52,966 nucleotides of DNA. Origin: a virus. The stretch lies in IMG/VR virus record IMGVR_UViG_3300025012_001675, positions 1 through 52,966 of that record. One strand, 5' to 3'. The notes beneath the pieces were generated by a model. The model was given only the letters and a program-made list of their open reading frames with translations, had not been told where the DNA came from and made no database searches. The translations under genes were made by a program, and so were the position numbers. Positions 18,987 through 47,807 of this stretch are shown piece by piece (position 1 is the first letter of the stretch; every line of letters begins with the position of its first letter).

Positions 18987-19856
18987 TTAAACCCCAAGGC
19001 CTCCTAAGGGGCCATTTGACCCGCTTGTTCCGAAGATGTTTTCGAGGCGGCGTTCTTCCGCACCCTTTTCTTCGCCCGGCGAGGTCGGAGCGCCCACTCC
19101 TCTCTCGACTTGCGCTTTGGCTTTCTTGAGGCGAATCTTCTCAGTGTCAGAAACCTTTGTGTCTCCCTTTACTTTTCCAGCGAATCCATCGACCTTCGCA
19201 CACGCTTCTTTGAGCGGCATAACCGTTCCTTTTTGGGAAGCGGCGTCGATCAAAGACAGCACGAGTTCGCGGTACTCTGGACTGGTCTTCAGGAGAGGGT
19301 GATCTTTCTGAGCCTCTCGAATTTCTTGCGCGGCGGAATCTCGCATCCGGCTTCGCGCATCGTAGGTTTTGCCAACGATGCTTTGAACTGTCGTAACCAT
19401 CCATTCTGCGAACTGCTTGGGAGTCATCTTGGCCAGTTCTTCGTCATTAGGCACATCTACTCCCTCGCCCTTACCTTCATCGTTTTCCTTCTTGGAATCA
19501 GGCTTGGTTTTTGTTCGCTTGGGCGGTTGGTTTTTTGTTTCGAGCTCCTCATACATTCGGATCACTTCCTCACGGCTTTTGCCGTGCCACTTGTTTTTCT
19601 GCTTGGATGCCTCGCCCCCTGCATCTTCCTCGGTTTCTTCTTCATCATCGGAATCATCCGATTCGCCATCATCCGATTCTTCCTCATCAGTTTCTTCGTC
19701 TTCGTCGGTTTCTTCTTCAGAATCTTTGGTGTCGGTTTCCTCGTCTTCTTCCTCACCCTTATCTTCCTGGATGTCTTCTTCTTCGGTATCCGTTTCCTCA
19801 TCTTCCGAGTTTGCGTTGAGGAGAGCGTCGAGCTCCTTTTTACGATCTTGATTCAT
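18987..19856 (-). CDS. Scaffold-like acidic protein
   Basis: A 289-residue protein whose first 90 residues are almost only D, E, T, S and K (EEDEETDTKDSEEETDEDEE), then a basic helical part (KWHGKSREEVIRMYEELETK, LAKMTPKQFAEWMVTTVQSI) and a C-terminal helix pair. Highly charged, helical, located directly before the capsid gene: the usual profile of a phage scaffolding protein. Such proteins guide capsid assembly and then leave. An AAGGTCGA motif lies 43 bases before its ATG. Confidence 0.75.
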   Translation of the reverse strand: MNQDRKKELDALLNANSEDEETDTEEEDIQEDKGEEEDEETDTKDSEEETDEDEETDEEESDDGESDDSDDEEETEEDAGGEASKQKNKWHGKSREEVIRMYEELETKNQPPKRTKTKPDSKKENDEGKGEGVDVPNDEELAKMTPKQFAEWMVTTVQSIVGKTYDARSRMRDSAAQEIREAQKDHPLLKTSPEYRELVLSLIDAASQKGTVMPLKEACAKVDGFAGKVKGDTKVSDTEKIRLKKAKAQVERGVGAPTSPGEEKGAEERRLENIFGTSGSNGPLGGLGV

Positions 19857-26421: not shown

Positions 26422-27447
26422 TTATTTCCCTGCAGCCACCAGGTGATTCATGATATTTGAAGATTGAATATAGCTGAATTTTGGCGGCAGAGCGTTTCCT
26501 ATTAAAAGAGAAATCGAGGTTTTGGAAATGTCAGTCGGAAACTTGTATGTTTTAGGAAATGTTTGCAGAAGTGCGGCTTCGCGAGCGGTGATGGCGCGAT
26601 CTTCCTGCGGATGCAAGAACCTGCCTTTTGAAGGGTTGAGGCAACCGCCGGTTATGGTGGATGAATAATCATCCCAACGCAACCGACCGTATACATCGTT
26701 AAATCCCACGCCATCTCCCTTGTGGCACTTCAGCTCAAATCTTTTCGGCAAATCGGTGCGGCTCCCGCCGTTTTTTGGCGTCGCCTTTATGCGCTTCATT
26801 ATCTTGGGTGTATGAGACGCCACTATTTTATGCACGGGGTCTGCAGTCTTTGAAACAGATTCTATGTGTCCAATCATGTCCCGTACTGTGACCTTTTCTC
26901 CCGTAGCCGGTGCGATGTCTATATCGCCCAACAATGATCCCACAACTACCAAGCGTTTGCGGCGTTGAGGAATGCCATACTGTTGAATGCTGACCGGTTT
27001 AAATTTTGGATTATACCCCAATTTTTGCAATTCCCGAACCACATATTTGAATAAATTGTAGTTAACCAGTCCGGGAACATTTTCCATCATGATCGTTAAA
27101 GGCTTCAAAGCTTTTACAAAACGCAGGTACTCCAGAACAAGGTTGTTTCTGTTGTCGCGTTTGCTGCGTTTCTTGTTCAGCCTACGCATTGAAGAAAACC
27201 CTTGACAGGGCGGACAACCGGCCAAGAGATGCAAAGGACTGCCGTTGAGAATTTTCTTTATATCGGCGGTGTTCACATTGCGTATATCACCCTCGAACAC
27301 TTTCGTGTCGGGGTGATTCAGACGATAAGTGGCGACCGAATCCGCGTCATTATCAAAAGCGGCGGACACATCGAATCCTGCATTCCTGAGTCCTTCGGAA
27401 AGTCCGCCGCATCCGGAAAATAAATCTATTGCAAAATATTTTTTCAT
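26422..27447 (-). CDS. C5-cytosine DNA methyltransferase (Dcm-like), last gene of operon
   Basis: 341 residues with the family motifs in order: DLFSGCGGLSEG (motif I, residues 8-19), GCPPCQGFS (motif IV, catalytic C81), ENVPG (motif VI), and QYGIPQRRKRLVVVG (motif VIII). It transfers a methyl group to C5 of cytosine in a short target. Four-base ATGA overlap with the upstream receiver-like gene. As a second C5 enzyme in the same operon, it may methylate the other strand of an asymmetric site or protect against a different enzyme. Confidence 0.9.
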   Translation of the reverse strand: MKKYFAIDLFSGCGGLSEGLRNAGFDVSAAFDNDADSVATYRLNHPDTKVFEGDIRNVNTADIKKILNGSPLHLLAGCPPCQGFSSMRRLNKKRSKRDNRNNLVLEYLRFVKALKPLTIMMENVPGLVNYNLFKYVVRELQKLGYNPKFKPVSIQQYGIPQRRKRLVVVGSLLGDIDIAPATGEKVTVRDMIGHIESVSKTADPVHKIVASHTPKIMKRIKATPKNGGSRTDLPKRFELKCHKGDGVGFNDVYGRLRWDDYSSTITGGCLNPSKGRFLHPQEDRAITAREAALLQTFPKTYKFPTDISKTSISLLIGNALPPKFSYIQSSNIMNHLVAAGK

Positions 27448-28895
27448 ACGATTGTTTGTGTTGACGACGTTGGCTCTTGCGCAGTTGCAACCGGGCCGAC
27501 TGCGGCAAAGTCGTCAAGAATTTTTTTCAAAATCTCCGTCATGTGCTCCGGATAATCCGGAACACCGTTGCCGCCCATGACATTTAAAATATGCTGTATG
27601 ACGGGAGTCAAAAAGGGTTCCGATATGGTGCACACCCTTTCGGCGTTTGGCCAATACGAATATTTCATCGGATCTTCTTTTTTCTGTCTGTCGGTAAATA
27701 CGTTCCAATCTGAAGGCAGGGTGACTCGCGTTGAAATAAAATCCTTGGGAATGGCTATAAAATTTTTAGTTTCGCCATTAATCGGGACAAAGGGAAGCAC
27801 GAAAGGCCCCTCCGATAATTCGCCGATCCTTCCCAGCAAACTCGAAACCTTCCCAGAAATTTTTTCCGGCCTTACACAGAGAGTCAACCAATCTTTGAGG
27901 TCGGAGTTGGTCTGACATAATTCATGCAACGCCACAGTGTTTATTATACCAAGATTTTTCTTCCAAAAATAGCCCAGGTCGCAATCTGCCGATAAAACGA
28001 GATGGAATTTATCGTCGACTTTTACTACATCGCCGCGTCTGACCAAATCATCGCCGGTTTCCCGATAAAAATACAATCGGCAGGACCAAACCTTAGCCGC
28101 GACACTCTCGTCCTGCGCGGGTGATCCCGTGGCGGGTTCGGGTATTTGATCCACCAAATCGTAAATATCTTTTCCGGCAATGGCCGTACGAAATCTTTCG
28201 GCAAGAAAATCAATAAAGTCTTTTTTTCCTCCGTCGCCGACAACCACGTGATTCTTTATGTCATTCAAAGAAGCCCTTCCCATGTCTGAAAGAATTTTAT
28301 CCATCGTTTGCACGGCTTTTTTTCTGAGAACGCTCGCAAATCTGAATGAAAAATTGTTGTTGTACATCTCCTCTGCTTTTTGCAGGAGAACATTGGTTTG
28401 ATCGACCCCCGCGACTGTTTTATCAAGATACGCCAAACGCTCTTTGTACTCTTGAAATTCAGGCTTGGCGAGAATCACATCGATCTCGGTTTTTTTGTCC
28501 GCTTTTGAAAATATAAAAACAAGCGAAAACGTGCGATCCAAAATTTCCTTCAGAATGCTTTCTGAGTCAGTTCCCGATCCGGCCGCCGCTCCGGGGTATT
28601 CCCAATCAAAAACCACCAGATCGGAACGAAAAAAACCATTGTCGATGGAATTGATGTAAAAAGAAGGGTTTGTAAAACCGTACACCTCCCATTTCGGACT
28701 GATGCCATCGGCGTCTTTTTGATCCAACAACGTCTGAGTCAGATTCTTTATAACTTCATCTGTCCACGTTTCTTGGGACAGCAAAAGCTGTAGGTTGGAT
28801 GCATTCAAAAGATCGGAATCCTTTATCCCTAAAGATTGGGCTTGTGATCCAGCTGCCGGAATATCATTATCGATGATACAAACGGAGTATCGCAT
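27444..28895 (-). CDS. Receiver-like protein partner of the GHKL ATPase
   Basis: About 483 residues from MRYSVCIIDNDIP (start 28895 follows the ATPase stop by 4 bases). The N-terminal part looks like a divergent receiver domain: IIDND (acidic pocket), DLVVFDWEYPG (phospho-acceptor position) and VFIFSKAD (the usual T/S-K). The remainder (residues about 200-480) has no named family: helices, then KFHLVLSADCDLGYF and a hydrophobic YSYWPN stretch. No DNA-binding output domain is seen. By place it may receive phosphate from the preceding kinase-like protein. Function not known. Confidence 0.55.
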   Translation of the reverse strand: MRYSVCIIDNDIPAAGSQAQSLGIKDSDLLNASNLQLLLSQETWTDEVIKNLTQTLLDQKDADGISPKWEVYGFTNPSFYINSIDNGFFRSDLVVFDWEYPGAAAGSGTDSESILKEILDRTFSLVFIFSKADKKTEIDVILAKPEFQEYKERLAYLDKTVAGVDQTNVLLQKAEEMYNNNFSFRFASVLRKKAVQTMDKILSDMGRASLNDIKNHVVVGDGGKKDFIDFLAERFRTAIAGKDIYDLVDQIPEPATGSPAQDESVAAKVWSCRLYFYRETGDDLVRRGDVVKVDDKFHLVLSADCDLGYFWKKNLGIINTVALHELCQTNSDLKDWLTLCVRPEKISGKVSSLLGRIGELSEGPFVLPFVPINGETKNFIAIPKDFISTRVTLPSDWNVFTDRQKKEDPMKYSYWPNAERVCTISEPFLTPVIQHILNVMGGNGVPDYPEHMTEILKKILDDFAAVGPVATAQEPTSSTQTIV

Positions 28896-28899
28896 ATAT

Positions 28900-31620
28900 T
28901 TATTTCTTTTCGCCAATAGGTCGTTCGGACGCGACCTTGCCGAAGTCAAGCGTAAACTGAGCACCGCCAAAACCTGATACCTTCTCACGATCCGTGGTGA
29001 GATAAATATCACCCTTCATGCTCTGCATGTAGTGTCTGCAAATATAAAGACCGAGACCGCTCGGCGGAATTCTGAGACTGTAACCAGGTTGAAATAAATA
29101 AGGCATTATCACTTCATCAATACCTGGCCCCGAATCGGCGACGGTCACGGTTCTGTGTTTCGAGTCGATGTGAATGTTGATTTTACGATTTTTCTTCGAA
29201 GCCATTCCCAGCCAATATGAACTGTTATCGAAAAGATTTGAAAATATTTGGATCAGAGCTCCGTATCTGCCGTACACCGGAAAGCTTTCTTTGGCATTCA
29301 CTTCGACTTCAATGCCTATCTTTTCGAGACGCGAACGGAACACGTCGACCACATATCCGATCGGCTTTGTTATTTCAAATTCAGCCTGAGTTTCGTTTTT
29401 TATCGCGCGGAGCGGACTCAGTCTCTTTAGTTCCGATTGTAGAGAAGCCGAAGCTTCTTTAAGATTTTTCAATTTATCCACGTCCGGTTTTTCGGACTTC
29501 AGCATATGCGAAACACCCGCGTAAAAATTGGCGGCTATTTTGGCAATTTCATGCACGGAAACGGCGACTGCCATGCCGTATCCGGCCTGCTCGGTCAACA
29601 AATCCTGTGCTTCTTGAATCAAGTCGATGCTTTTCTGCAAATTTTTTAAAGAGTTTGAGAGATTGACCAACTTCTCTCCGCGTTCGCTTTTCTTACCCAT
29701 CGGGTCAAGAATTTTATACGGGTCTTCTTCGAAAGGATATTTTTCTTTTATTTGCCCAACCAGAGCCGACCCTTGTTTTGCATAGTCTTTTAAGACCTTG
29801 GGGTCTCGAATCACGTCTCCCACAAGGTCATTATACTCATCGCGCTTGCCGATAAATTTAGTTTCAATTACGGTGGCGACAACGGCATGCACAAGTTGGG
29901 TCAGGTCTTTGAAGGCCTTGTTCTCTATCAATCCCTCTCTGTTTGTTTTGTCTATCAAGTCGATATTTTTTGCCTGATCGACCTCAAGATTTCCGAGGAT
30001 GTTGTAATAAGAAATTCTGAACCCTTGTTTGATGTGTCGTTTGCTTAAATCCAGCCAATCGGTTTCAGCACCCCATTCCGCCGGAAAAATATTGATGCCA
30101 TCCCGAAATATGGAAATGCCTCCGAATTTTGTGAGGTAGTCTATAAACTCTTTGCCTTCCGGACCGGTGCTGCTGATCCACGGGTCTTTGCGATACCAGA
30201 CATCGACGTGCATATAAAAAGGTCCGCATTCCGGCTTTCGCAGGCCGTTTCCATCGGGCAATGACCAGTGATCGAGTTTGGCTTTGCGCAAATCAAAATT
30301 TTCCTCTTCGATTTTTTCTTCGGACATCGGCACTGTTTTGGGAGGTTGAAATTTCAGCGAATATTCCATGACGCCGTTTTCATCCACAAGACCGTCGAAA
30401 GAAAAAGTCGAAGTAAAAGCGTCCGCCGGGTTATCGGTCGATAACATGCCAACTTGAGGACATTCCAGATAAGCATTGAAGCCCTGTCCGGCTTTTGCGC
30501 TTTTCGGCGATGGATTGGGAGAATTGAGACTGATAATCGAGCGATGCAATTCTTCCACGGTTTCCCGGTCCCAAGAAAATCCGTTGCGACTGCCATAAAT
30601 CACCAGTCTGGTGCCGGACCCCTTTTTGCCATAATCTCGCGATGGGCTTTGACGTGTCAGGCTGACGCCGACCGTCTCCAAATCTTTTGATCCTTCTTCT
30701 CCCGCTTCGAATTTATCCCAATCCACCTCAAGGAGATACTCGTAGTTCAGATCGCTGACTTTTGTTTTAAGCAACAGTTGGCGTCCGAGCCGATGAGATG
30801 CGAATCTTCCGACACCTTTTTCTCCCAACGGAATACGACCGCCGCGTTCCTTTTTTATTTCCGAAATCAGCTTATCGTACGAACCCAGTTTGCCGGCGGC
30901 TGCGGCCTTTTCTCTTTCCTGTCTTATATTTTCTTTAACCGCAGTTTTGATTGTGGAAGCCGGACGAAGCCAACCGTTTTCAATCACTTCACGCGTCATC
31001 CCTGAGCCATCATCTTCGATTATTATTACGGGTCCGGGCAATTCCGGAAAAAGATTGTCGGACTTGTCCACTTCTGACAAAGATGGAATGTTCTCAATTC
31101 GCACACGGCAATACGATGCGCCTGCGTCATAGGCATTTTTTATAAGTTCCAGGATGCCAACCTTTTCGGATGCGATAAGCTGCTCTCCCAGGACTTTGAT
31201 CAAGTGCGCATCCGCTCTGAAATTGAGTCTGATTTTTCCGTCAAGACATATCTCGTCGAGAAGCAGAGATGGAATTTTTCGTACTGCGTTTTGAGGATTA
31301 TAATGGGGGGATTCCGCCTCCCGTATTTTGCCTGCGCCGTCCTTGAACGAAACTGGTTCGACAAACGGTTTGTAGTCGATAACCTCGACAAAATAATGGC
31401 CACCATCTTTTTTGTCTTTTGTGGGTTGAGCCTTTATTTTTCCGTAACCGAAATAAACACCTTCGCCGCCGCTTTTGATCGGATCGTAATAAATGAATTC
31501 AATTGGTTCGTTTTTAAACTGGCCGATGTATTTATCTGGAAAATGATAAAACCGCCCGACAAAGTCGTTGTATTCGCTGTTTTCTCTGGATTGTGTAAGC
31601 ACCAGGCAGTTTCTTGACAT
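28900..31620 (-). CDS. Dual GHKL ATPase with MutL/Hsp90-like and histidine-kinase-like halves
   Basis: 906 residues. Residues 1-95 (YHFPDKY, EFIYYDP, GVYFGYGKI) look like a PUA/EVE-type module found in modification-dependent nucleases. A first GHKL domain follows: ELIKNAYDAG (N box, 158-167), EDDGSGM (G1), GEKGVGRFA (G2). About residues 680-900 hold a kinase-like half: VHEIAK (possible phospho-His), IFSNLFDNSSYWL (N), VADSGPGI (G1), GLGLYI (G2). So one protein joins a DNA-machine ATPase and a signalling kinase. It overlaps none of its neighbours; 4-5 base gaps suggest one mRNA with Vsr and the receiver-like gene. Confidence 0.7.
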   Translation of the reverse strand: MSRNCLVLTQSRENSEYNDFVGRFYHFPDKYIGQFKNEPIEFIYYDPIKSGGEGVYFGYGKIKAQPTKDKKDGGHYFVEVIDYKPFVEPVSFKDGAGKIREAESPHYNPQNAVRKIPSLLLDEICLDGKIRLNFRADAHLIKVLGEQLIASEKVGILELIKNAYDAGASYCRVRIENIPSLSEVDKSDNLFPELPGPVIIIEDDGSGMTREVIENGWLRPASTIKTAVKENIRQEREKAAAAGKLGSYDKLISEIKKERGGRIPLGEKGVGRFASHRLGRQLLLKTKVSDLNYEYLLEVDWDKFEAGEEGSKDLETVGVSLTRQSPSRDYGKKGSGTRLVIYGSRNGFSWDRETVEELHRSIISLNSPNPSPKSAKAGQGFNAYLECPQVGMLSTDNPADAFTSTFSFDGLVDENGVMEYSLKFQPPKTVPMSEEKIEEENFDLRKAKLDHWSLPDGNGLRKPECGPFYMHVDVWYRKDPWISSTGPEGKEFIDYLTKFGGISIFRDGINIFPAEWGAETDWLDLSKRHIKQGFRISYYNILGNLEVDQAKNIDLIDKTNREGLIENKAFKDLTQLVHAVVATVIETKFIGKRDEYNDLVGDVIRDPKVLKDYAKQGSALVGQIKEKYPFEEDPYKILDPMGKKSERGEKLVNLSNSLKNLQKSIDLIQEAQDLLTEQAGYGMAVAVSVHEIAKIAANFYAGVSHMLKSEKPDVDKLKNLKEASASLQSELKRLSPLRAIKNETQAEFEITKPIGYVVDVFRSRLEKIGIEVEVNAKESFPVYGRYGALIQIFSNLFDNSSYWLGMASKKNRKINIHIDSKHRTVTVADSGPGIDEVIMPYLFQPGYSLRIPPSGLGLYICRHYMQSMKGDIYLTTDREKVSGFGGAQFTLDFGKVASERPIGEKK

Positions 31621-31625
31621 AATTT

Positions 31626-32054
31626 TTACTTGTTAAGCAAAGCCATTATTTTGTTTATCGGCTCATCGCCTTTGTTTTTTAAAGCATGCTCCCAAAACCT
31701 TATCGCCTTCCAACCCATTTTTTTATATTCAAGATTCGTTTTTTTGTCCCTCTCTTTGTTGGCCAATATTTTTTTCATCCAGAACTTCTTGTTTGATGTC
31801 GGCATGGTTCCATGCCATCGACATCCGTGCCAAAAGCACGAATCAACAAATACAACCACTTTTTTATCGACAAAGGCTATGTCGGGCTTGCCGGGTAAAT
31901 AGGACACGTGTTTTTTGTAACGAAGCTTCGCTTTGCCGAGGTCGCGCATCAAAGACTTTTCTATTTTTGAATCCTTGCTTTTGATGCGAGACATTATTTC
32001 GCTTCGTTTTTGTTTGGTTACCGTATCCATACTTTTTACATTTGAATTTGCCAA
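31626..32054 (-). CDS. vsr: Vsr (very short patch repair) endonuclease
   Basis: 142 residues (or 134 from the internal ATG at 32030). It has KRSEIMSRIKSKDSKIEK, the catalytic KPDIAFVDKKVVVFVD (D and xDxK part of the Vsr fold) and FWHGCRWHG with the conserved histidines. Vsr nicks T:G mismatches that arise from deamination of 5-methylcytosine, so it protects the sites of the two C5 methylases in this operon. Also known: Vsr-like proteins may act as restriction enzymes, which cannot be excluded. It overlaps the end of the endonuclease gene by about 19 bases. Confidence 0.9.
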   Translation of the reverse strand: MANSNVKSMDTVTKQKRSEIMSRIKSKDSKIEKSLMRDLGKAKLRYKKHVSYLPGKPDIAFVDKKVVVFVDSCFWHGCRWHGTMPTSNKKFWMKKILANKERDKKTNLEYKKMGWKAIRFWEHALKNKGDEPINKIMALLNK

Positions 32055-33103
32055 TCGGAAGGCAAGACGATCTTGTCGTAACCCCTGCTCTCCACGAACG
32101 GTTTAATGCCCTTGCTTGAGGGAAATTCGCAATCAAATTCTCTTTGAACGTCCTTCAACAAATTTTTTCCGAGATTGTCTCGATATTTTTTGCTCAAGCA
32201 AAGTTTGTACCAGTCGTCCAAATCGTTGATTGTAATGATTCCCTGTATCTTGTCGCCCCAGCCAACCTGCAACAAGAGAGACTCGATTGATTCTCTTTCA
32301 GTGTCAAGACACACGATAACGATGCGATCGGCCGTCACGCTGTCGACTATGTCTTCCATGAGCTCCGGGGTCAAGGTGAGGTGTTTGACCTGTATTGCCG
32401 GTCCAAAATTCGCCCAGATATCCAAGCCTCGATCGGCCGCGTTGGTCACACCGACGCGATACAATGCGGCCGGCAAGATAAGCCTTGTTTGTTTCGAGTC
32501 GATGCCAAGAACCATCTTGATGAATCTCTCAAAGTCTTTGAGGATTTCCGCGTCCTTGTTCCCGATTTCCAATGTGACCTCGGCTTTTAGAGCTCGAACG
32601 ATGGTTGCGAAAAGAGCGTAGACCAAAATCTCGTACATTTTGTCGATGCTTCTCCTGAGACCCGGGGTTGTTTGAAAAAACGAAACTAGTTCTTTCAAAG
32701 AAAAGGCGTCGGATGTGGAAGACTTGATGTAAGTGTCGATCTCTCGAACGGACGACAAACGCGCTTCCAATGCTTTGTAGATATACGCTTCCACAAATCC
32801 CTTGCCCTTGCTGTTGATTTTTCCCAGTTCCACAAGCAATGTCGGCGGCATGGCGTTGGCTTCAAAAATGTTGTCTTGGAATTTTTGGCTTGAAGTGCTG
32901 TGTCGTCCGACCAAAAGATTGGACACCTCATCCCTCCATCTTTTCGATATGTTGCGATACGATTGGAGTTCGCTCAGATCCAAGTCTTTATCGATTCTGT
33001 GATGATAAAGAATTTCCGCGATCTGAATCGGTTTGTACAGGTGGACGCGGGACTTGCGTATCACCGTATCGAGAGCTTGTTTTGGCAGGTTATTTGTTGG
33101 CAT
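32036..33103 (-). CDS. Type II restriction endonuclease (HaeII-like)
   Basis: 355 residues. Around 225-242, RGLDIWANFGPAIQVKHL gives D228...Q238-x-K240, the (D...QxK) variant of the PD-(D/E)XK active site that I associate with the HaeII family. The first 220 residues are helical. It overlaps the upstream C5-methylase gene by 14 bases, as expected for a matched pair. The family assignment is from memory of this pattern. If HaeII-like, the target would be of the RGCGCY type, but that is inference. Confidence 0.65.
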   Translation of the reverse strand: MPTNNLPKQALDTVIRKSRVHLYKPIQIAEILYHHRIDKDLDLSELQSYRNISKRWRDEVSNLLVGRHSTSSQKFQDNIFEANAMPPTLLVELGKINSKGKGFVEAYIYKALEARLSSVREIDTYIKSSTSDAFSLKELVSFFQTTPGLRRSIDKMYEILVYALFATIVRALKAEVTLEIGNKDAEILKDFERFIKMVLGIDSKQTRLILPAALYRVGVTNAADRGLDIWANFGPAIQVKHLTLTPELMEDIVDSVTADRIVIVCLDTERESIESLLLQVGWGDKIQGIITINDLDDWYKLCLSKKYRDNLGKNLLKDVQREFDCEFPSSKGIKPFVESRGYDKIVLPSDWQIQM

Positions 33104-34106
33104 AAATTTTTTGTACTTTTTCTTTATTGAATAAATCGACTTGGGACGGTCCGCTTCGAGGATTCTGACTCATCGCTTTGACCATCGCTTGCGCCACGGC
33201 TTGGATTTGCGGAACCACCACGCTATTCCCGGCTTGTTTTCTGGCTTGATTATCACGCACTACAATTTTATATGTGTCCGGAAATCCTTGCAGGCGAAAC
33301 ATTTCCCGGGGGGTAAGTCGCCGCTCCCCGTTAACCGTCAAATAATTATAGGAACCATTGGCTCTTAGGGCGCAAGAGTGGGGGTGAATTCCAAGATTGC
33401 TTCCCTTGTTTTCGTGCAAGACCGCAGGCCGATAAGTCAAAGTTTTGTTTTGCTCTTTAAGTCTCCGTTGTATTTTGTCTCGCATGTGCTGACTGAGAAA
33501 ATGTTTCCGATCTATCCGGTCATCCGACTCCAAAACATCAGCCAAGGTTTTTGCTTCGGTTCCCTTGATCGGGAACTCAAAAGGATAGTTCTCCTTGAAC
33601 CCAACGATCATTATTCGTTCTCTCTTTTGCGGCACTCCGAAATCAAGACCGTTAAGAACTTTATAATGCACATAGTACCCTAAGCCTTCTAAAATATCTA
33701 AAATGACTTTGAATGTTCTTCCACCATCATGGGATGTGAGCTGTTTTACGTTTTCGAGCAGGAACGCTTTTGGTTGTTTCGCTTTGAGTATCCGCTCGAC
33801 GTCGAAAAATAGAGTGCCGCGCGTGTCTCCAAATCCTTTGCCGTGGCCAATAATACTGAAAGCCTGACACGGAAAACCGCCCGTCAAAATATCATGATCT
33901 GGAATTTCATCGGTATGAATTTTTGTTATATCGCCTTGTGGCTTTTCACCGAAGTTCGCCTCGTAGCTTACCTGACAAGGCTCATCGAATTCAGAGGTAA
34001 AAACGCATTTGCCGCCGTTGCGTTCAAATGCAATTCTAATGCCACCGATTCCGGCGAATAAATCGATGAAAGTGAATTTTTTTACCTTTTGAATCTTTTT
34101 AGCCAT
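33090..34106 (-). CDS. C5-cytosine DNA methyltransferase paired with the restriction enzyme
   Basis: 338 residues: DLFAGIGGIR (motif I), GGFPCQAFS (motif IV, catalytic C80), ENVKQL (motif VI), FGVPQKRERIMIVG (motif VIII), QAGNSVVVP (motif X). It marks the host target so that the adjacent endonuclease does not cut it. Starts 15 bases after the Fic stop; an AAAACCATCCAAG motif lies just before its ATG. Confidence 0.9.
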   Translation of the reverse strand: MAKKIQKVKKFTFIDLFAGIGGIRIAFERNGGKCVFTSEFDEPCQVSYEANFGEKPQGDITKIHTDEIPDHDILTGGFPCQAFSIIGHGKGFGDTRGTLFFDVERILKAKQPKAFLLENVKQLTSHDGGRTFKVILDILEGLGYYVHYKVLNGLDFGVPQKRERIMIVGFKENYPFEFPIKGTEAKTLADVLESDDRIDRKHFLSQHMRDKIQRRLKEQNKTLTYRPAVLHENKGSNLGIHPHSCALRANGSYNYLTVNGERRLTPREMFRLQGFPDTYKIVVRDNQARKQAGNSVVVPQIQAVAQAMVKAMSQNPRSGPSQVDLFNKEKVQKIYANK

Positions 34107-34109
34107 GTT

Positions 34110-34118
34110 CTTGGATGG
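34110..34118 (-). repeat. Short motif copy D (CCATCCAAG)
   Basis: AAAACCATCCAAG on the minus strand, 4 bases before the methylase ATG at 34106. It is the core shared by copies A, B and C. Confidence 0.4.
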
Positions 34119-34120
34119 TT

Positions 34121-35191
34121 TTAATTTGACAATTTAATGTAGCGAGTCCCGCGGCCGCGGCCGACTCGTTTAATCTTGCCCAGCTCGACCAAACTCCTAA
34201 GTGCTTGGCGAACGGTGCCGAGCGCGATGCCGGTTTCTTTTACAATATCGCCGGGACCCGACTCTCCAACATTTGAAATATATTTCCACACTTCATACTG
34301 CTTAGGTGAGAGAGTATCCTCAATCTTTTCTTCTTGTAAATACGATAGTGCTTTCGTTGCTTGCTCTCGCACGACAGACAAAAAGAAATTTAGCCACGGC
34401 GAGATAGTGTCGTGATCGGTTTTGAACGTCTCCTGGGATTTGCGGAGCGCAATATAATATTCATCTTTGCGGCGTTCAACGATTTGTTCATGCGAGACAT
34501 ACTGCACAAAGGTATAGCCGGAGCGTAGAAGTAAAAGATTTGTGAGGACGCGCGAAAGACGTCCATTGCCATCTTCAAATGGGTGAATTTTCAAAAATTC
34601 GACAATAAAATTGGCGATGATTAAAAGTTGGTGGAAACGATTCTTTTCCATCGCATCTTCCGTCCACTCGACAAGCTCTTGCATTTCTTTTGCAGTGAGG
34701 AATGCCGGTGTCGTCTCAAACATAATCTTTGCGACTTTTCCATCTGGCCCAAGTACCCCGACTGTGTTTTCTGTTTTTTTGTAACCGCCGCGATGCGTGT
34801 CATCCTTATGAGAATATTTCAGAAGCTGATTATGAAGAGAAGTGATCACACCCTCTCGAAGTGGCAGGGTCTGAAAGCTATCGAAAACATTTTGAAGTGT
34901 CTCTAGGTACCCTTGCACTTCCTGCGAATCACGATCGGCAAACTTTGAGACCGCGAGGCCACGCATAACGTCCTCGACTTTTTCATCGGTTAGTTTTGCC
35001 CCTTCTATACGAGTGGATGCGCCGGCAGAAGTGATCAGCGTTGATCTTTTGAGATTAGTAATTGCCTGAGGCGTCATTCTTAAGCCTCCTTTGAACTCGC
35101 CACGAATACCATCAATCTCAGCCAAAAGAGCCACGATATGCGGTTCTGGATTTTTAATACGATGATCAAATTTTCGTGTAATGTCGTTCAT
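34121..35191 (-). CDS. Fic family protein with C-terminal wHTH
   Basis: 356 residues. Fic motif HPFEDGNGRLSR at 203-214 is complete (catalytic H203), so AMP transfer to a protein is likely. STRIEG at 59-64 fits the inhibitory (S/T)xxxE(G/N) helix in the class II position. The last 70 residues (PKQYEVWKYISN, GDIVKETGIALGTVRQALRSLVELG) form a winged helix. It is the first gene of the restriction operon, and 10-base direct repeats overlap its promoter. That fits autoregulation by its own wHTH. Confidence 0.85.
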   Translation of the reverse strand: MNDITRKFDHRIKNPEPHIVALLAEIDGIRGEFKGGLRMTPQAITNLKRSTLITSAGASTRIEGAKLTDEKVEDVMRGLAVSKFADRDSQEVQGYLETLQNVFDSFQTLPLREGVITSLHNQLLKYSHKDDTHRGGYKKTENTVGVLGPDGKVAKIMFETTPAFLTAKEMQELVEWTEDAMEKNRFHQLLIIANFIVEFLKIHPFEDGNGRLSRVLTNLLLLRSGYTFVQYVSHEQIVERRKDEYYIALRKSQETFKTDHDTISPWLNFFLSVVREQATKALSYLQEEKIEDTLSPKQYEVWKYISNVGESGPGDIVKETGIALGTVRQALRSLVELGKIKRVGRGRGTRYIKLSN

Positions 35192-35388: not shown

Positions 35389-36756
35389 CTATCCTTGGAT
35401 ATCGGCGTATTCCTTGAGTAGAGCATCGGAATCGACACCCTCTCTTTCTGCTTGCCGGGCTATGTTCTCGGTCGTCGTAATAATGTTCTCAAGGGGGGCT
35501 GGGTTCTCAATTATCGAGATCGCATGAAGTGCCTTCCTTGATGTTTCTGTTTGGGATAGCACTGTTTTGACGTATTGGGGCATGGTGACGAACCAGAATG
35601 TTTTTCTGATTTCCGGGAGATCCGCACTCAGATCAATCGTTGGTTTTTCCCATCCGCTCTTTTTGAGGTCGTTGAGAAGAAGTGTGACCACGGTACTCAA
35701 GTGACCGCGCTGCAGATCTTCTCCCCAGTCGTGAGCGTCATCATTCAATTGCATTGCGACCAGATAGTGTTTGAAGTATGAGATGATATTTCCCCAGTCT
35801 TCAGTTTTTAATTCTTTGCCGAATTGGGTGAGTATAGCCACCGAAGAAAGGATGTGTCCGGAAGCAGGACGATATTTATTTTCGTAGTCTCCAAAGTCGG
35901 GTAGGGTTGTTGGAATATGGAAAATGTTTCCATCAACTTTGGCACGACAGTTTTCAACTTCCCAGGCATTTGAACCATCCAGCTTATCCATCAGGTCATG
36001 GAAGAACGGACGGAATTCTTTGTCATCAGGTAGGGCAATAAAAAAGTCTATGTAGTGACGAGCAAAAATGTTGGCGATGGGAAGCAAGCGCGGATCGGCC
36101 GCTTCGTCTCGATCCCAAAAGTCGTCATAGATTATAAATGCCGTCCAGAAGAAAATGTTGGCAAGCCCAATGTCGGCGACCAATTCATCGGGAATACTCT
36201 CCCCGCTCTTTCCGAGGGATATCTTTGTGTAATAAGCCATGAGTGACATTTGCTTGTCTCGGTTGCCGCGGATGGTCTTTTCGATCGCTGACTTCGCTCG
36301 TTCCCGTAGTGTCGGAGAAAAAGCTTGGAATCGTTCGTCAAACTTTTTTCGTATCATATTCATGATACGCTGCTCATTCTCGTCATAAGCAATCGGCTGT
36401 TTAATCGGCTCTTCCTTGTCGACACTGCCGACAAGCGTTTGGTATTTATCAATGAGACTGCGAACTGTTTTGTCGTCGACGACACTGCCAAACGGTTCTG
36501 CGATATTTGAGAGACGCTTTTCCAGAAAATCATCAAGCTTAGGTAGGCGAATATCCTGCAGCACAAGAAAACAAGCAATCGCCAAGTTAAGACCGACATC
36601 GGTTGCCCCCTGTTTTGGTTCCAAGGAGTAGGGACCCCCTTCGTCGACCTCCATCTCGGTGAGACGTTTTACAATCTGCGCGAGCTTTATGCCTCCGATA
36701 CTCTCGCCGGATTTTAAGCTTAAAATTAAATTGTCGATAAATTGATTATGCTGCAT
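35389..36756 (-). CDS. Isoprenyl diphosphate synthase-like protein (ComQ-like candidate)
   Basis: 455 residues from MQHNQFIDNL. Two aspartate-rich motifs of class I isoprenoid enzymes are present: IIYDDFWDRDE (D211-D212-x-x-D215) and LNDDAHDWGED (D339-D340-x-x-D343). The N-terminal 80 residues (EGGPYSLEP, DVGLNLAIACFLVLQD, LPKLDDFLEKR) recall an alpha-alpha-toroid piece seen in terpene cyclases. It may make or transfer a prenyl group. It overlaps the kinase gene by 11 bases and shares its transcript. In ComQXPA systems, an enzyme of this superfamily prenylates a peptide on Trp; here that is inference. Confidence 0.65.
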   Translation of the reverse strand: MQHNQFIDNLILSLKSGESIGGIKLAQIVKRLTEMEVDEGGPYSLEPKQGATDVGLNLAIACFLVLQDIRLPKLDDFLEKRLSNIAEPFGSVVDDKTVRSLIDKYQTLVGSVDKEEPIKQPIAYDENEQRIMNMIRKKFDERFQAFSPTLRERAKSAIEKTIRGNRDKQMSLMAYYTKISLGKSGESIPDELVADIGLANIFFWTAFIIYDDFWDRDEAADPRLLPIANIFARHYIDFFIALPDDKEFRPFFHDLMDKLDGSNAWEVENCRAKVDGNIFHIPTTLPDFGDYENKYRPASGHILSSVAILTQFGKELKTEDWGNIISYFKHYLVAMQLNDDAHDWGEDLQRGHLSTVVTLLLNDLKKSGWEKPTIDLSADLPEIRKTFWFVTMPQYVKTVLSQTETSRKALHAISIIENPAPLENIITTTENIARQAEREGVDSDALLKEYADIQG

Positions 36757-38161
36757 ATTCGGTAACTTGTTTACGCATGGGCAGAGATACTTTAAAGGAT
36801 GATCCTCTACCGGCTTCGCTCTTGGCAATAATTGCACCTCCGAAGTCTTTTTCCACGATTCGCTTAGCCATTGAAAGACCGATGCCAATTCCTTGCCCGT
36901 TTATTTTCGTAGTAAAAAATGGTTCGAATATTTTACTCATGTGGTGTTCGGGTATTCCAACACCGTTATCCTCCACGATCATGATTATAATCTCCGGTTC
37001 TTCCACCAGAGATATCTGCACCCATCGATCGGCCAAGCTTACTGGCACCAGTTCCGCTGTGGGTGGCATGCACGCATCAATGCCGTTGGCAACGAGATTC
37101 AGCACGATCTGATTAAATTTTATCGCATCGCCAAACATTCGGATATCACTTCTCGGCGCGAAGCGCAATTCGACATTGGCTTTTTGTGCCTTGTGAGCAA
37201 GCACCTCAATGACATGTTGGATTTCCTGCTCAAGTAAAAATAGGGCTTTTGTTTCTTCACGCGCCAATTGCTTGCGTACCGCAGCAACCAAGTCTTCTAA
37301 TTTCTTCGCGGCTCGTACCGCATTGCCTACACACTGCTTAGTTTCCTCGGCTGTGCCATCCGTCTTTCCCAAATTGAGCGATACCGCATTTAAAGGATTT
37401 ATCAGATCGTGAAATAAGCCTGAAGAAATTCGGCCAAACTCAGCAAATCTATATAACTGTGTCATCTTTTCTGCTTGAGTCTCCTTCAGCTCTTTAGTGC
37501 GTTGATCGACTTTAATTTCTAAAGAGTCACGCTCCTCTTTCAATTCCGCCTCTGATTTTCGTAGTTTAAAAATTGATTTTTCTATCTCCCGATTAGAAAG
37601 CCATGTGATTGTTGCTATAACAAAGAAAATAATTATAGCAGCGGATGTTTCTGCTATGCCCCATGTTTCTAAGGTCCAATATCTTTCTGCTGTAATCCTA
37701 CTAGTTGCTTGCAGGTACGCGGTAATTACCAGCATACTTCCAACCGCAAGAGAATTAATAAAAATATATCTTTTATTCAGAAGTATTCCTGTCAGGACTA
37801 TGGTTAAAGCATAAAAGAGAAGAGAAGCGACTAGGTCAACGCCCCACGTATAACTCATAAACGCTGCTAGGGTGAAGAATATCGCTATTAATAGGTAGGA
37901 CGATAAATTAAAGTAGCCTCTACGCGAGAGATAAAAGAACGATAAAAAAGCAAATAAAATAACCAGGGTTATTAGCGGAGATAACCCTCTGTATGATGAT
38001 CCAAGCAGTATTGATTCCGCAAGGGTAGCTACATTTGCGAATATTAAAAGAACGATCAGCGCTGAAAGAATTATATTGAAAATAAACTCGCGCCGTCGCA
38101 GATCGTCCGTTTTGGATCGTGGTTCGATTAAACGGTATAAAAAAGAAGTAATCCTTTTCAT
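36746..38161 (-). CDS. Membrane sensor histidine kinase
   Basis: 471 residues from MKRITSFLYR (GGAAG SD 6 bases upstream; the longer start at 38182 is TTG). About six membrane helices in residues 25-190, a coiled coil (SEAELKEERDSLEIKVDQ), H box SGLFHDLINPLNA, then N, G1 and G2 boxes: NLVANGIDACMPP, VEDNGVGIPEH, GQGIGIGLSMAKRIV. The layout of many spans and no extracellular domain resembles peptide-sensing kinases such as ComP. It follows the 37-residue peptide gene and overlaps the synthase-like gene. Output partner probably the response regulator at 38423. Confidence 0.85.
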   Translation of the reverse strand: MKRITSFLYRLIEPRSKTDDLRRREFIFNIILSALIVLLIFANVATLAESILLGSSYRGLSPLITLVILFAFLSFFYLSRRGYFNLSSYLLIAIFFTLAAFMSYTWGVDLVASLLFYALTIVLTGILLNKRYIFINSLAVGSMLVITAYLQATSRITAERYWTLETWGIAETSAAIIIFFVIATITWLSNREIEKSIFKLRKSEAELKEERDSLEIKVDQRTKELKETQAEKMTQLYRFAEFGRISSGLFHDLINPLNAVSLNLGKTDGTAEETKQCVGNAVRAAKKLEDLVAAVRKQLAREETKALFLLEQEIQHVIEVLAHKAQKANVELRFAPRSDIRMFGDAIKFNQIVLNLVANGIDACMPPTAELVPVSLADRWVQISLVEEPEIIIMIVEDNGVGIPEHHMSKIFEPFFTTKINGQGIGIGLSMAKRIVEKDFGGAIIAKSEAGRGSSFKVSLPMRKQVTEYAA

Positions 38162-38214
38162 GGGACTTCCACTGTTAAACAAAAGCGCAGGGGTACCGAA
38201 TCGATTTGGCAGAA

Positions 38215-38328
38215 TTATTTATCGACCCAAGGTACACCAACGCCCATGACAGTCACAATTAGTGCCATCAAAGCCGAGCTATTGCGAACCGCTTTGTTTG
38301 TTAGAATTTCTTTGATGATTTTTTTCAT
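38215..38328 (-). CDS. 37-residue membrane peptide before the kinase (candidate signal peptide)
   Basis: My own reading; below the usual length cut-off. It begins MKKIIKEILTNKAVRNSS, has one hydrophobic stretch (ALMALIVTVMGVGV) and ends PWVDK with a single Trp four residues from the end. It has its own promoter at 38386-38414 and is followed by kinase and isoprenyl-synthase-like genes before the only terminator. The position of the Trp recalls ComX pheromone precursors, in which a near-terminal Trp is prenylated. It differs by its longer hydrophobic part. Could instead be a small membrane regulator or a holin-like peptide. Confidence 0.55.
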   Translation of the reverse strand: MKKIIKEILTNKAVRNSSALMALIVTVMGVGVPWVDK

Positions 38329-38385
38329 AAAACTTATGCTATTTCTTTAAGGTTCGGATTCCTCGACCACAGAATCCATGGATTA

Positions 38386-38414
38386 ATTATAGCAGATATT
38401 TTTAAATATTTTAA
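38386..38414 (-). promoter_or_regulatory. Promoter of the peptide-kinase-synthase unit
   Basis: On the minus strand: TTAAAA, 17 bases, TATAAT. The leader holds a GGATTC/GAATCC stem. Confidence 0.65.
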
Positions 38415-38422
38415 GCCATAAT

Positions 38423-39088
38423 TCAGTCAATTACATATCCGGTACCGGAAACAGTTCTTATAAAATCACCTTTATTCCTGCCTTGCAGTTTTCGCCGAAG
38501 GATCGTGACGTGCGTCTCAACCGTATTGGTAAACAAGTCGGCATTCATGTCCCAAACATGTTCCAGGATTGTCTGCCGTGTGAGCACCCGCCCTCGATTG
38601 CGTAGCAAAAATTCTAAAAGGAAAAATTCTTTTGGGGCCAGATGCACTTCCCTGCCTGCCCGATGAACAGATCGCTTCGGCAAGTTGAGTTCTATATCGT
38701 CCACGCGAAAAATTTCATCCTCCACTTTCTGCGGTCGACGTATCAATGCCTTCACTCTTGCCGCCAGTTCAGCGTATGAAAACGGCTTCGTAATATAGTC
38801 ATCCGCTCCAATGCTTAGAAGATCTACTTTCGTCTCAATCTCACCCTTTACCGAGAGTATGAGAATTGGCATGCCCTTACCCTCTGATCGGATTTCCGTG
38901 CAAACCTGCCGTCCGTCTTTTTTCGGCAATCCAATATCTAAAATTATTAAGTCGTAGTCATTGATTTTTGCTTTGTATGCGCCCTTTTCTCCGTCTTCCG
39001 CCACGTCAACAACAAAACCCTCTGCCTTCAGCGAAGGCCTTAGAAAGTCTACTGTTTCTTTATCATCTTCGACGATAAGAAGGTTCAT
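38423..39088 (-). CDS. OmpR-family response regulator
   Basis: 221 residues: receiver domain with D8-D9, phospho-acceptor D51 (LIILDIGLPKKDG), and TKPF lysine; C-terminal winged helix (VHLAPKEFFLLEFLLRNRG, VETHVTILRRKL, RTVSGTGYVID). A DNA-binding transcription regulator that likely answers to the kinase at 36746. It starts 2 bases after the MltG stop, so it is on the MltG transcript, while the kinase is on a separate one. Confidence 0.9.
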   Translation of the reverse strand: MNLLIVEDDKETVDFLRPSLKAEGFVVDVAEDGEKGAYKAKINDYDLIILDIGLPKKDGRQVCTEIRSEGKGMPILILSVKGEIETKVDLLSIGADDYITKPFSYAELAARVKALIRRPQKVEDEIFRVDDIELNLPKRSVHRAGREVHLAPKEFFLLEFLLRNRGRVLTRQTILEHVWDMNADLFTNTVETHVTILRRKLQGRNKGDFIRTVSGTGYVID

Positions 39089-39090
39089 AG

Positions 39091-40209
39091 TTAGTCGCTT
39101 AGATAAGTTGCAATGTTTGCCTTATGTTCCTCGAAGGTTTCGGCACAATGGATGGTCTTTGATTTATCGTGGAGGTAAAACATGCATTCCGTTTCCTCTG
39201 GATAAAGCACTGCCTTGATCGCGTCGATGCCAGGGTTGGCAATCGGATGAGGAGGGAGACCTTCGTTTCGGTAGGTGTTATAAGGCGAGGGAATATCTAT
39301 GTCTTCCGGTTTGATTGGCATCCACCAGGTGCCTTCGCTGGTATATGTGCCTGGTTGCTTATCGTATCGGGCTTCGCCGTAGTGAATCTGATCATCTCGA
39401 ACATACTGTACGGTGGCATCGACTTCTAGCTTCATGTCTTTAAGCAGACGATTCCACAAGATTCCGGCGATGAGGGGCATGTCATCTTTGCCAGCAGCTT
39501 CTCTTTGCACGATCGAAGCGAGCTTGAGTGCCGTTGTCCATTTGATGTTCTGTTTGAGGGCTTCCTGAGTATAGGGCTGGAATTTTTCGTTAAACTTTGC
39601 GCGCAATCTATCTGCCACTTTAAGCGGTTCTTCGTCGACAGGAATCAGGTAGGTGTCGGGAAAATACAGACCTTCAATCTCATCGTAATTCATTGACGTA
39701 TAGGTAGTGACCCATTTCTTTTCTACATCTTCATTCCACCCAAGTTGATTGGCGAGAATATCTGCAATTTGTTCTTTGCGAAGCCCTTCAGGAATCACGA
39801 CCCATTTCATATAAGGTCCTTCCTTGAAAGTTTCGGCCACCTGCCAAGCCGTCATACTCTTGGAGATTCTGTAAGCACCGGGCGTGAAGCAGTCCACGCA
39901 AGTCGTCGCTGTTATGCCGATTCCGTTTGTTTTGAAATAAGCGATCTTGAATCCTGCTTCACTTTTGATGAATCCTTTTTCTTTGAGCAACGCTGAGAGA
40001 TCCTTAAAGTCTCCAGAGCCCAGTGGCATGGTGAATTGTTCCAGTTCTGCATTCGTCTGCGGAGCAGCAAACTGGCTGCTGTATGAGATGTACCATACCA
40101 GAGATCCCACAGCTATGATTGCTATGCCGATTCCAACAGCAATGGCACGCTTTGTCTTCAGAAAACTGAATCGTGAGGGTGGTGTATTGGATAAAAGTTG
40201 ATCTGTCAT
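39091..40209 (-). CDS. mltG: Endolytic murein transglycosylase MltG
   Basis: 372 residues: N-terminal membrane anchor (21-43), LysM-like part, then the YceG catalytic domain with ALKLASIVQREA (E237 is the expected catalytic acid), EVDATVQY and SPYNTYRNEGLPPHPIANPG. It cuts nascent glycan strands to end their growth. Found here in the same operon as a response regulator and an HTH protein. In a phage element it could alter host wall; in host it is core. Catalytic residues look intact. Confidence 0.9.
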   Translation of the reverse strand: MTDQLLSNTPPSRFSFLKTKRAIAVGIGIAIIAVGSLVWYISYSSQFAAPQTNAELEQFTMPLGSGDFKDLSALLKEKGFIKSEAGFKIAYFKTNGIGITATTCVDCFTPGAYRISKSMTAWQVAETFKEGPYMKWVVIPEGLRKEQIADILANQLGWNEDVEKKWVTTYTSMNYDEIEGLYFPDTYLIPVDEEPLKVADRLRAKFNEKFQPYTQEALKQNIKWTTALKLASIVQREAAGKDDMPLIAGILWNRLLKDMKLEVDATVQYVRDDQIHYGEARYDKQPGTYTSEGTWWMPIKPEDIDIPSPYNTYRNEGLPPHPIANPGIDAIKAVLYPEETECMFYLHDKSKTIHCAETFEEHKANIATYLSD

Positions 40210-40213
40210 AAAA

Positions 40214-40396
40214 TTATTTATTACTGCTTGCCTTCACAAGCCGGTCAATGTCCGCTTTTTTAATTCGCCATTGGCCAATCTTGGTAGCAAGTAATCGTTT
40301 AGTTTTAATGTACCGCATGATTGTCCGTTCACTCACATGAAGGATGTCCGCGGCTTCTTTGGCTGTGAAATAATCTTTGGGAGTTTTCTTGGTCAT
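40214..40396 (-). CDS. Excisionase-like helix-turn-helix protein
   Basis: 60 residues with a MerR/excisionase-type winged helix: YFTAKEAADILHVSERTIMR and WRIKKADIDRLVK. Typical DNA-binding domain of the excisionase family, used both as phage Xis and as small host regulators. It lies 4 bases upstream of MltG, far from the integrase, so a role as operon regulator is more likely. Confidence 0.8.
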   Translation of the reverse strand: MTKKTPKDYFTAKEAADILHVSERTIMRYIKTKRLLATKIGQWRIKKADIDRLVKASSNK

Positions 40397-41997: not shown

Positions 41998-42819
41998 TTA
42001 GTTAGAATATAGGCTACGCACGTCGTTGAAGCTCATGACCTCACCCGCCGGAGACAGGACGATTTGAACGAACGGAGTCACGTCTTCACCCTGAGGTTTG
42101 GACTTGGCCTCCCAACGGAAAGCGTAGCTGACGCTGCCAGGCTTTGACATCGTTCTAAAGCTAAAGTTAGCTTTGACCGAATCAAAGTCGGCGACGTGCT
42201 TCGCAAGATATTCCTCAGCCTTTGCTTGAAGCTCAGCTTTCGGAAGACTCTTACTCCCGTCGCGTTCGAAAGGAATCTTGCTACCAGGGCCAGGCCCAAA
42301 TTGAACAACATTGTTGTTAACCGGGTCGACGATGTACAAGAACCCTTTGTCATCCTGCCACTGCTCAATACGTTTGACGGCATTGGTGTAAGGATTCGCA
42401 GAGGTGCCCTCGAAGGTAACATTGGCTTTCCTCTCAGCGAGAGATTCAATGTTGCTCTTTACTTGGGCGAGCGATTCGGATGAACGACCAGAAAGTTCAA
42501 GCTTGTGAACTTCTTCAGTAAGCTTGTTCTCCAGCGTTTCTACGCGCTCTTTTGATGCTCCGCAGAATTCAGACAGGCCGTCTCGACCGAAGGTCAAGCA
42601 GCCATATGCCGATTCGTATTGAGTAACGCTATCCAGCTCTGCTCTAATGGACTCGATCGCGGCGTTAGTGTGAGGGCCTGGTACAGCAGAATTATCCGGT
42701 TGGACTTGCGCCGACACCGGGGAACCTTGACTGAACGTAAAGCCACTCGTTACGCCGAGAGCGAGGCCGAAGACAATTGCTAGTGCGCCTGCTCCGATGA
42801 CGAATTGTTTTTTAGCCAT
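41998..42819 (-). CDS. Membrane-anchored extracellular protein, paralog 2
   Basis: 273 residues. Anchor (FVIGAGALAIVFGLALGVTS), then IESIRAELDSVTQYESAYGC and EFCGASKERVETLENKL; the GC..FCG pair and the C-terminal beta domain (VQIVLSPAGEVMSFNDVRSL) match paralog 1. Starts in a leader with GAGGTCGA 38 bases before the ATG. It ends 6 bases before the secreted protein gene, so the two form one unit. Function unknown. Confidence 0.6.
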   Translation of the reverse strand: MAKKQFVIGAGALAIVFGLALGVTSGFTFSQGSPVSAQVQPDNSAVPGPHTNAAIESIRAELDSVTQYESAYGCLTFGRDGLSEFCGASKERVETLENKLTEEVHKLELSGRSSESLAQVKSNIESLAERKANVTFEGTSANPYTNAVKRIEQWQDDKGFLYIVDPVNNNVVQFGPGPGSKIPFERDGSKSLPKAELQAKAEEYLAKHVADFDSVKANFSFRTMSKPGSVSYAFRWEAKSKPQGEDVTPFVQIVLSPAGEVMSFNDVRSLYSN

Positions 42820-47525: not shown

Positions 47526-47807
47526 TTAGGCCGAGGCCGACTCCGATCCCGCATTGCGGGGCAGATCCGGGACATTGAGCCGAACACTGACACGAGCTTT
47601 GCTTCTGCGGCCGACGAGGTTCATGACCGAGCGGATCGCTTTAATTGCGCGTCCCTCTTTGCCGATCACGATTCCCGCATCGCCCTCGTCAAGCTTCGCC
47701 GAGAGGAGCACGCCCATCTCGTCTACGTGCCTTGTCACTTCCACCTGTTCAGGGTGGTTGACTATTGCCCGTAGAATCGTTTCAAGTAGATTCTGATCTT
47801 GTTCCAT
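47526..47807 (-). CDS. KH-domain RNA-binding protein (KhpA/YlqC-like)
   Basis: 93 residues: LETILRAIVNHPEQVEVTRH then VIGKEGRAIKAIRSVMNLVG, where GKEGR is the GxxG RNA-binding loop. This is the single-KH KhpA type, normally a host RNA chaperone that affects division and translation. In a phage replication block it is unusual. It has a GAGGTCGA leader motif 47 bases before the ATG. Confidence 0.8.
   Translation of the reverse strand: MEQDQNLLETILRAIVNHPEQVEVTRHVDEMGVLLSAKLDEGDAGIVIGKEGRAIKAIRSVMNLVGRRSKARVSVRLNVPDLPRNAGSESASA

Follow-up and report, generated by a model that had tools for sequence, protein, structure and literature searches.

Why should a bacteriophage carry, in one operon, a two-component regulatory pair, a gene of only 37 codons and an enzyme that resembles an isoprenyl diphosphate synthase? 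The question is raised by IMG/VR record IMGVR_UViG_3300025012_001675, a viral sequence of 52,966 nucleotides that was analysed here at full length (the window). The first-pass annotation had read these genes as a distant analogue of the Bacillus ComQXPA system, in which ComQ prenylates a tryptophan near the C-terminus of ComX and ComP senses the product. The analogy is supported by sequence, with one refinement: the nearest characterised enzyme, judged by homology, appears to be PalQ of Paenibacillus rather than ComQ. The operon is probably a phage-borne member of a Patescibacteria-wide prenyl-peptide pheromone (sender–receiver) system. Its components, arranged in the order regulator–peptide–kinase–enzyme, were found where the annotation had placed them:

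38423–39088, minus strand: OmpR-type response regulator, receiver plus winged helix (Pfam Response_reg 2.8e-27, Trans_reg_C 8.8e-25)
38215–38328, minus strand: putative signal-peptide precursor of 37 residues, MKKIIKEILTNKAVRNSSALMALIVTVMGVGVPWVDK, ending GVPWVDK, conserved in 40 of 40 loci
38227–38229, minus strand: codon for Trp34, invariant in 40 of 40 loci and fourth from the C-terminus
36746–38161, minus strand: histidine kinase with an ATG start at 38161, six predicted membrane helices (hydropathy), then a HisKA-like region and HATPase (Pfam HATPase_c 9e-23)
37562–38161, minus strand: hypervariable membrane sensor half, kinase residues 1–200 (26–48% identity to locus L003 in 50-residue blocks)
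35389–36756, minus strand: class I isoprenoid-synthase-fold enzyme, proposed peptide-Trp prenyltransferase (AlphaFold2, Foldseek, PalQ-type homology)
36112–36126, minus strand: first Asp-rich motif, DDFWD, residues 211–215 (alignments A1 and A2)
35728–35742, minus strand: second Asp-rich motif, DDAHD, residues 339–343, in QLNDDAHDWGED (alignment A2)

A short precursor with a near-terminal tryptophan

When the enzyme alone was used to scan 84,980 bacterial and archaeal species genomes, ten loci were found, with carriers that include Doudnabacteria (83% identity), Magasanikbacteria, Moraniibacteriota, Falkowbacteria, Paceibacterota and a Patescibacteria bin. Samples of Patescibacteria genomes, searched by profile, yielded hits in 15 of 380 across the phylum, 18 of 381 and 6 of 384 in two classes, and 5 of 49 and 3 of 41 in two orders. 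By these counts the system looks rare, patchy and widespread in the Patescibacteria. Relatives of the enzyme were also sought in viral contigs and phage records, and those of the kinase in viral contigs, and none were found.

Enzyme-only searches yielded 40 loci with readable upstream sequence, which were fetched with their flanks. In all of them a short open reading frame (ORF) precedes the kinase gene, or the enzyme gene in L042, where the kinase is absent. Peptide and kinase genes are adjacent in 39 of the 40, kinase and enzyme genes overlap or adjoin each other, and the regulator lies immediately upstream in 31, as the annotation had described for the window. In L042 the peptide gene (5921–6031, minus strand) leads directly into the enzyme gene, and neither kinase nor regulator lies close by; the locus may be a solo sender.

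Trp stands 2–8 residues from the C-terminus in 40 of 40 peptides and is never the last residue; it is preceded by Pro in 38 and is the single Trp in 38. Since only 1.3% of background ORFs of 20–65 residues contain Pro-Trp within their last nine residues, retention of the peptide in 40 of 40 loci is more than chance. An unbiased test of peptide conservation was provided by held-out loci: a profile made from 22 loci found an ORF in 8 of 8 held-out type A loci (E 4e-15 to 2e-3), in each case just upstream of the kinase and ending in Pro-Trp plus 1–7 residues. Between the window and L003, a Doudnabacteria prophage that is the closest relative of the window phage, the peptide shows dN 0.147 and dS 1.34, values that suggest purifying selection on the frame. 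A frame kept in related loci and a Trp that does not vary, both of which the annotation had required when it proposed a search of Patescibacteria genomes for short frames of this kind, are thus what was found, the held-out loci included.

The rest of the peptide is far less constant. Among the first 22 peptides M1, L9, R15 and W34 are invariant (alignment A3), and a Pfam scan of the window peptide found no family. The leaders form unrelated groups: type A follows MxxLIKxxLTxKxxR, and the ten type B loci have other leaders, of which mostly the ending NPGTPWR[DS] alone remains conserved (nine of ten, close variants included). Lengths range from 22 to 40 residues (57 from the annotated start in L048), and the near-terminal Trp is the sole universal feature of the 40 peptides.

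The enzyme and its nearest relatives

The window enzyme, whose ATG overlaps the kinase stop codon by 11 nt, matched no Pfam family above the cut-off. Its AlphaFold2 model, made with 11 sequences, reached a predicted local distance difference test (pLDDT) score of 84 and a predicted template modelling (pTM) score of 0.76. The best Foldseek matches in the PDB were all trans-isoprenyl diphosphate synthases (target TM 0.5–0.73), namely hexaprenyl-, polyprenyl- and farnesyl diphosphate synthases and not terpene cyclases. Structure prediction therefore upholds the earlier assignment to the isoprenyl-synthase superfamily, as do the two DDxxD motifs. Both are conserved in nearly all family members, and Q336, D339, D340, D343 and D347 are invariant in alignment A2. 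Type A and type B enzymes are homologous (hhalign 100%, 1.8e-47); those of type B are stand-alone proteins of 272–303 residues, the size of ComQ. PF00348 was weakly matched by 2 of 24 enzymes (best E 0.056), none above the cut-off. The GKxxR motif of adjacent canonical synthases was not evident in the window family, in a residue alignment that is itself weak (hhalign probability 0.74%).

A weak tblastn match (E 0.06) to a Paenibacillus cellulosilyticus replicon, L084, led to a PalQ-type protein of 319 residues (L084 4839–5798). In P. alvei, PalQ belongs to a PalQ/PalX/PalP arrangement, has its first motif at D89/D93 and acts on PalX, with the core DNVRRFFW; it prenylates the C-terminal Trp in vitro (PMC10853753). 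The L084 protein has its first motif at the same position, D89/D93, and adjoins several precursors of the NHLP type whose C-termini read NVRKYTWV, NVRKFVWI and the like (NVRKxxW-x), with a histidine kinase gene nearby on the other strand. The Patescibacteria family profile scores 58 bits against it (E 4.5e-15 with the database size set to 1e5; hhalign 98.4%), and canonical synthases of the same genomes score at most 5.5 bits with that profile. At least 60% of the family share 28 positions of the L084 protein, and Gln203, D206 and D207 (L084 numbering) are present in all aligned members; the Gln before the second motif also occurs in canonical synthases and is therefore not diagnostic. Four to five tandem PalX-like NHLP precursors, which differ around the terminal Trp, lie beside this one PalQ-type enzyme (L084 5861–7340). 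A cyanobacterial relative of the enzyme, on a Tolypothrix plasmid, also adjoins an NHLP peptide.

Some family members are much longer. The DxDD motif, in a PYPxDLDDT-like form, is present in 14 of 15 enzymes of at least 618 residues, most of them with a QxxDGSF repeat, and DxDD together with this repeat marks class II terpene cyclases. The family profile matches drimenol synthase in this cyclase-like domain (E 1.5e-6). Shorter enzymes retain only GGPY; that of the window keeps a remnant of the domain in its N-terminal ~120 residues, with GGPY kept and neither DxDD nor the QxxDGS[FW] repeat. According to a review (PMC13290415, citing Hubrich et al. 2024), ChrPC combines a domain that prenylates Trp with one of cyclase type; by that description it resembles the long-form Patescibacteria enzymes, unlike the window protein, which lacks DxDD. 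Because of the DxDD domain and this description of ChrPC, the long forms may make a cyclised terpenyl-Trp. A 340-residue protein in L050 (5154–6176) has a membrane segment at its N-terminus and repeats of squalene-hopene-cyclase-like/TED-like type; it is matched by the cyclase-like domain of the profile only, and has neither a class I domain nor a peptide.

The sensor, and comparison with known systems

The kinase is a many-span protein, as annotated. In its AlphaFold2 model the helices cover residues 19–53, 62–80, 84–106, 111–127, 131–152 and 169 onwards, and the model matches PDB entries mainly via the kinase core. Between the window and L003 the sensor is only ~36% identical, against ~92% for the kinase core (84–96% in blocks); the peptide is 76% identical, against 90% for the regulator and 91–97% for flanking proteins. 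Relative to the trend that relates sensor to core identity across the family, this sensor value is lower by ~7 residual standard deviations. Peptide distance tracks sensor distance when kinase-core distance is removed (partial Mantel r 0.34, 0 of 2000 permutations), a correlation to which shared ancestry may contribute. In ComX-type and Agr-type systems the sensor is hypervariable when specificity groups diverge. Variability figures for ComX-type systems are given in PMC4008528.

Besides this hypervariable receptor, the likeness to ComQXPA consists of a short precursor with a near-terminal Trp, a class I isoprenyl-transferase-fold enzyme, a multi-span kinase and a regulator, all together. The ComQ RO-E-2 substrate rule places Trp 2–4 residues from the C-terminus; in the window it is the fourth, and in the family the second to the eighth. 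Several defining features of ComQXPA, for which the sources were PMC4008528 and PMC5331326, are nevertheless different here. The gene order differs; the regulator is OmpR-type (GerE at 0.26 only), whereas that of ComQXPA is LuxR-type (PF00196); and the kinase has HATPase_c with HisKA (PF00512) below the cut-off and no HisKA_3, the domain of the ComQXPA kinase (PF07730). The ComQXPA enzyme is of the PF00348 type; its first motif is DDxxD, as is the DDFWD of the window, but it has a pseudo second motif, NDxxx/GDxxx, in place of DDAHD, and does not have the class II domain of the long forms. Pfam ComX (PF05952) had no match among 22 peptides or in two carrier genomes, although it is a weak probe, since the B. 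subtilis control also fell below the cut-off. For these reasons we do not count the system as a member of ComQXPA, but as a functional analogue that would work like it. In a census of 2014, ComQXPA-like loci were confined to the Firmicutes (PMC4008528, PMC5331326).

With PalQ/PalX/PalP the system shares profile homology through the P. cellulosilyticus protein, two intact Asp motifs, an adjacent histidine kinase and a peptide with a terminal or near-terminal Trp. It differs in having the regulator inside the operon and in its Patescibacteria and phage setting; moreover, an NHLP leader, which PalX has, was sought by Pfam in the peptides without a match. The likeness to Arbitrium and other phage communication systems (PMC11945551) is confined to a temperate phage carrying a peptide signalling module: Arbitrium uses an intracellular receptor, and here a two-component kinase and a prenyltransferase are found. 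The open-access literature searched contained no report of Patescibacteria peptide pheromones, and a 2024 review of the Patescibacteria mentions no quorum, pheromone or histidine kinase; this leaves room for reports outside that literature, above all for homologous enzymes in Hubrich et al. 2024.

Phage setting, proposed mechanism and alternatives

The surroundings of the operon include the following elements:

39091–40209, minus strand: MltG/YceG-like lytic transglycosylase of the phage, next to the cargo site (Pfam YceG 1.1e-66)
38386–38414, minus strand: promoter-like TTAAAA-17-TATAAT with extended TG (scan, 10 of 12 matches)
38356–38377, minus strand: 5' leader hairpin GGATTC-tgtggtcga-GGAATCC with GGTCG in the loop
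35353–35376, minus strand: terminator-like hairpin with a T tail (-11.3 kcal/mol, 11 pairs; not listed by the scan)
32036–35191, minus strand: neighbouring cargo, a Fic protein and a HaeII-type restriction–modification pair (Pfam Fic 2.8e-15, DNA_methylase 7.9e-96, RE_HaeII 1.9e-130)

The window encodes an integrase, an SU10-type major capsid protein, a portal-like protein, a GpA terminase and a replication O-like protein, and is therefore a temperate phage, of Doudnabacteria (Patescibacteria). A related prophage of the same family, on Doudnabacteria contig MFEY01000008, has the order MltG–regulator–peptide–kinase–enzyme–Fic, followed by a type I-like restriction system where the window has HaeII. 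In a more distant phage, L002, the portal gene comes directly after the MltG gene; in the window the regulator start codon is 2 nt past the MltG stop. The operon, which occupies this position in the window and the Doudnabacteria prophage, is thus cargo at a variable site of the phage family, in agreement with the annotation. Several other carriers have the system among genes of chromosomal appearance (enolase, CTP synthase, FtsX, penicillin-binding protein 2). All ten type B systems (L057–L066) are divergent to a penicillin-binding-protein-2-like gene, which is probably plain synteny, and in Doudnabacteria phages the neighbour is MltG; such recurrent peptidoglycan-gene neighbours may reflect synteny or function. 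Further cargo at 26422–31620 resembles a defence cassette: it encodes a C5 methyltransferase, one protein with a Response_reg_2 domain and another that has two HATPase domains. In two distant loci a Mu-Com-like zinc-finger protein starts after the enzyme gene (L005 9476–9949; L009 about 9400–9530); the one in L005 also has a PAS-like region. This protein may in both loci be a linked regulator.

The annotation had also bounded the transcription unit by a promoter and a terminator. A promoter-like sequence is indeed present, but the scan gave fewer such sites than shuffles did, and this one is not significant alone; the terminator hairpin folds with its T tail, but falls short of the scan criteria. 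Both signals are weak evidence by themselves. GGTCG precedes 24 of 40 peptide genes, against 1.5 in shuffles. The leader hairpin was dropped as a system-specific element because it also precedes other phage genes: GGTCG(A), in many cases within a hairpin loop closed by a stem of varying sequence, lies 30–110 nt upstream of many of them, including 47526–47807, 40214–40396, 18987–19856, 17750–18928 and 41998–42819 in the window and structural genes of L002, and it is rare upstream of host genes in the one host contig examined. A response-regulator box, seen by eye as direct repeats before the peptide promoter in L062, L053 and L035, showed no enrichment over shuffles, and an Rfam search of the operon region gave no match.

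Direct support for a pheromone system comes from the gene set, its conservation, the invariant Trp, the enzyme fold and motifs, PalQ-type homology, the hypervariable sensor and the phage context; prenylation, export, sensing and outputs are what we infer from these by analogy. The class I enzyme would attach an isoprenyl group to the near-C-terminal Trp of the precursor, which in long-form relatives may in addition be cyclised by the fused class II domain. The modified peptide would then be trimmed and leave the cell, its prenylated end would be recognised by the six-helix sensor of the adjacent kinase, and the kinase would phosphorylate the OmpR-type regulator. Transcription would change as a result; the genes affected plausibly include those of the operon and others of the phage or host. 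Isoprenoid genes next to the systems, an isoprenyl-diphosphate synthase gene beside five (L045, L051, L054, L055, L056) and an isopentenyl diphosphate isomerase gene beside L006, support the prenyl role by strong guilt by association.

Alternatively, the operon might make a prenylated antimicrobial peptide (a bacteriocin-like ribosomally synthesised and post-translationally modified peptide), with the kinase and regulator merely autoinducing it. Kinase/regulator pairs often control peptide antimicrobials, and the window operon stands among phage cargo that includes restriction–modification genes. However, no exporter or immunity family recurs beside the loci, the minimal set comprises no more than a sender and a receiver, even close phages have a hypervariable sensor, and several peptides are short and acidic, such as MSKQETETTPAEDNSPGTPWRS; we consider this explanation unlikely. 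It is markedly less probable still that the signal is a free terpenoid or a prenyl diphosphate produced by the enzyme, with the peptide as an accessory. The enzyme fold, the class II DxDD domain of long relatives and a weak Terpene_syn_C_2 match would suit such a role, whereas the one feature common to all the peptides, a near-terminal Trp, serves as acceptor for every characterised peptide prenyltransferase that resembles trans-isoprenyl diphosphate synthases (PMC13290415), and the closest homologue identified, of PalQ type, is accompanied by PalX-like peptides. The hydrophobic stretch at residues 18–33 of the window peptide might suggest an unmodified small membrane peptide that binds and tunes the kinase, but many homologues (L039, L042, L063–L066) keep the C-terminal Trp without any such stretch, for which reason we rejected a 'small membrane protein' identity, and the conserved enzyme would be left unexplained; we give this idea hardly any credence.

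Several observations weigh against the prenyl-peptide pheromone as well. PalQ homology was tested only via the proxy L084 4839–5798, and PalQ requires Trp at the very C-terminus (PMC10853753), whereas here it stands 2–8 residues from the end, in contrast to the terminal Trp of PalX. ComQ has lost its second motif, and according to the ComQ literature a DDxxD in that place would not allow this enzyme to prenylate Trp properly (PMC5331326); the second motif of our family is a canonical DDxxD. Five peptides (L044, L046, L060, L062, L064) were recognised by eye, that of L060 has no standard start codon, and the annotated start in L048 lies further upstream. A recurrent dedicated exporter or protease was sought beside the loci and none was found; nor was an immunity or output gene common to them. 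Lastly, among 42 carriers, many of them incomplete metagenome-assembled genomes, a trans-prenyl synthase was found in 16, UppS in 19, IspH in 4 and HMG-CoA reductase in 2, and the near-complete G1078 (977 kb contig) has none of the four. Many carriers would therefore have no known source of prenyl diphosphate, and putative scavenging of the donor from the host cell is the likeliest answer.

A bolder version of the pheromone reading, which we put forward as doubtful speculation, holds that the signal is a Trp-linked terpenoid whose chain the long forms cyclise into a polycyclic-terpene signal; that the donor is host-derived, because most carriers cannot make isoprenoids; that the signal reports kin density and host contact; and that the Doudnabacteria prophages carry rival specificity types.

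The system raises a sharp biochemical question, that of the prenyl-donor source in organisms without isoprenoid synthesis. A prenyl-peptide system would, if the reading is true, be placed on a temperate phage. With precursors, enzymes and receptors predicted in 40 loci, a conserved sender–receiver operon across several Patescibacteria lineages would offer a testable signalling language for a large and mostly uncultured group.

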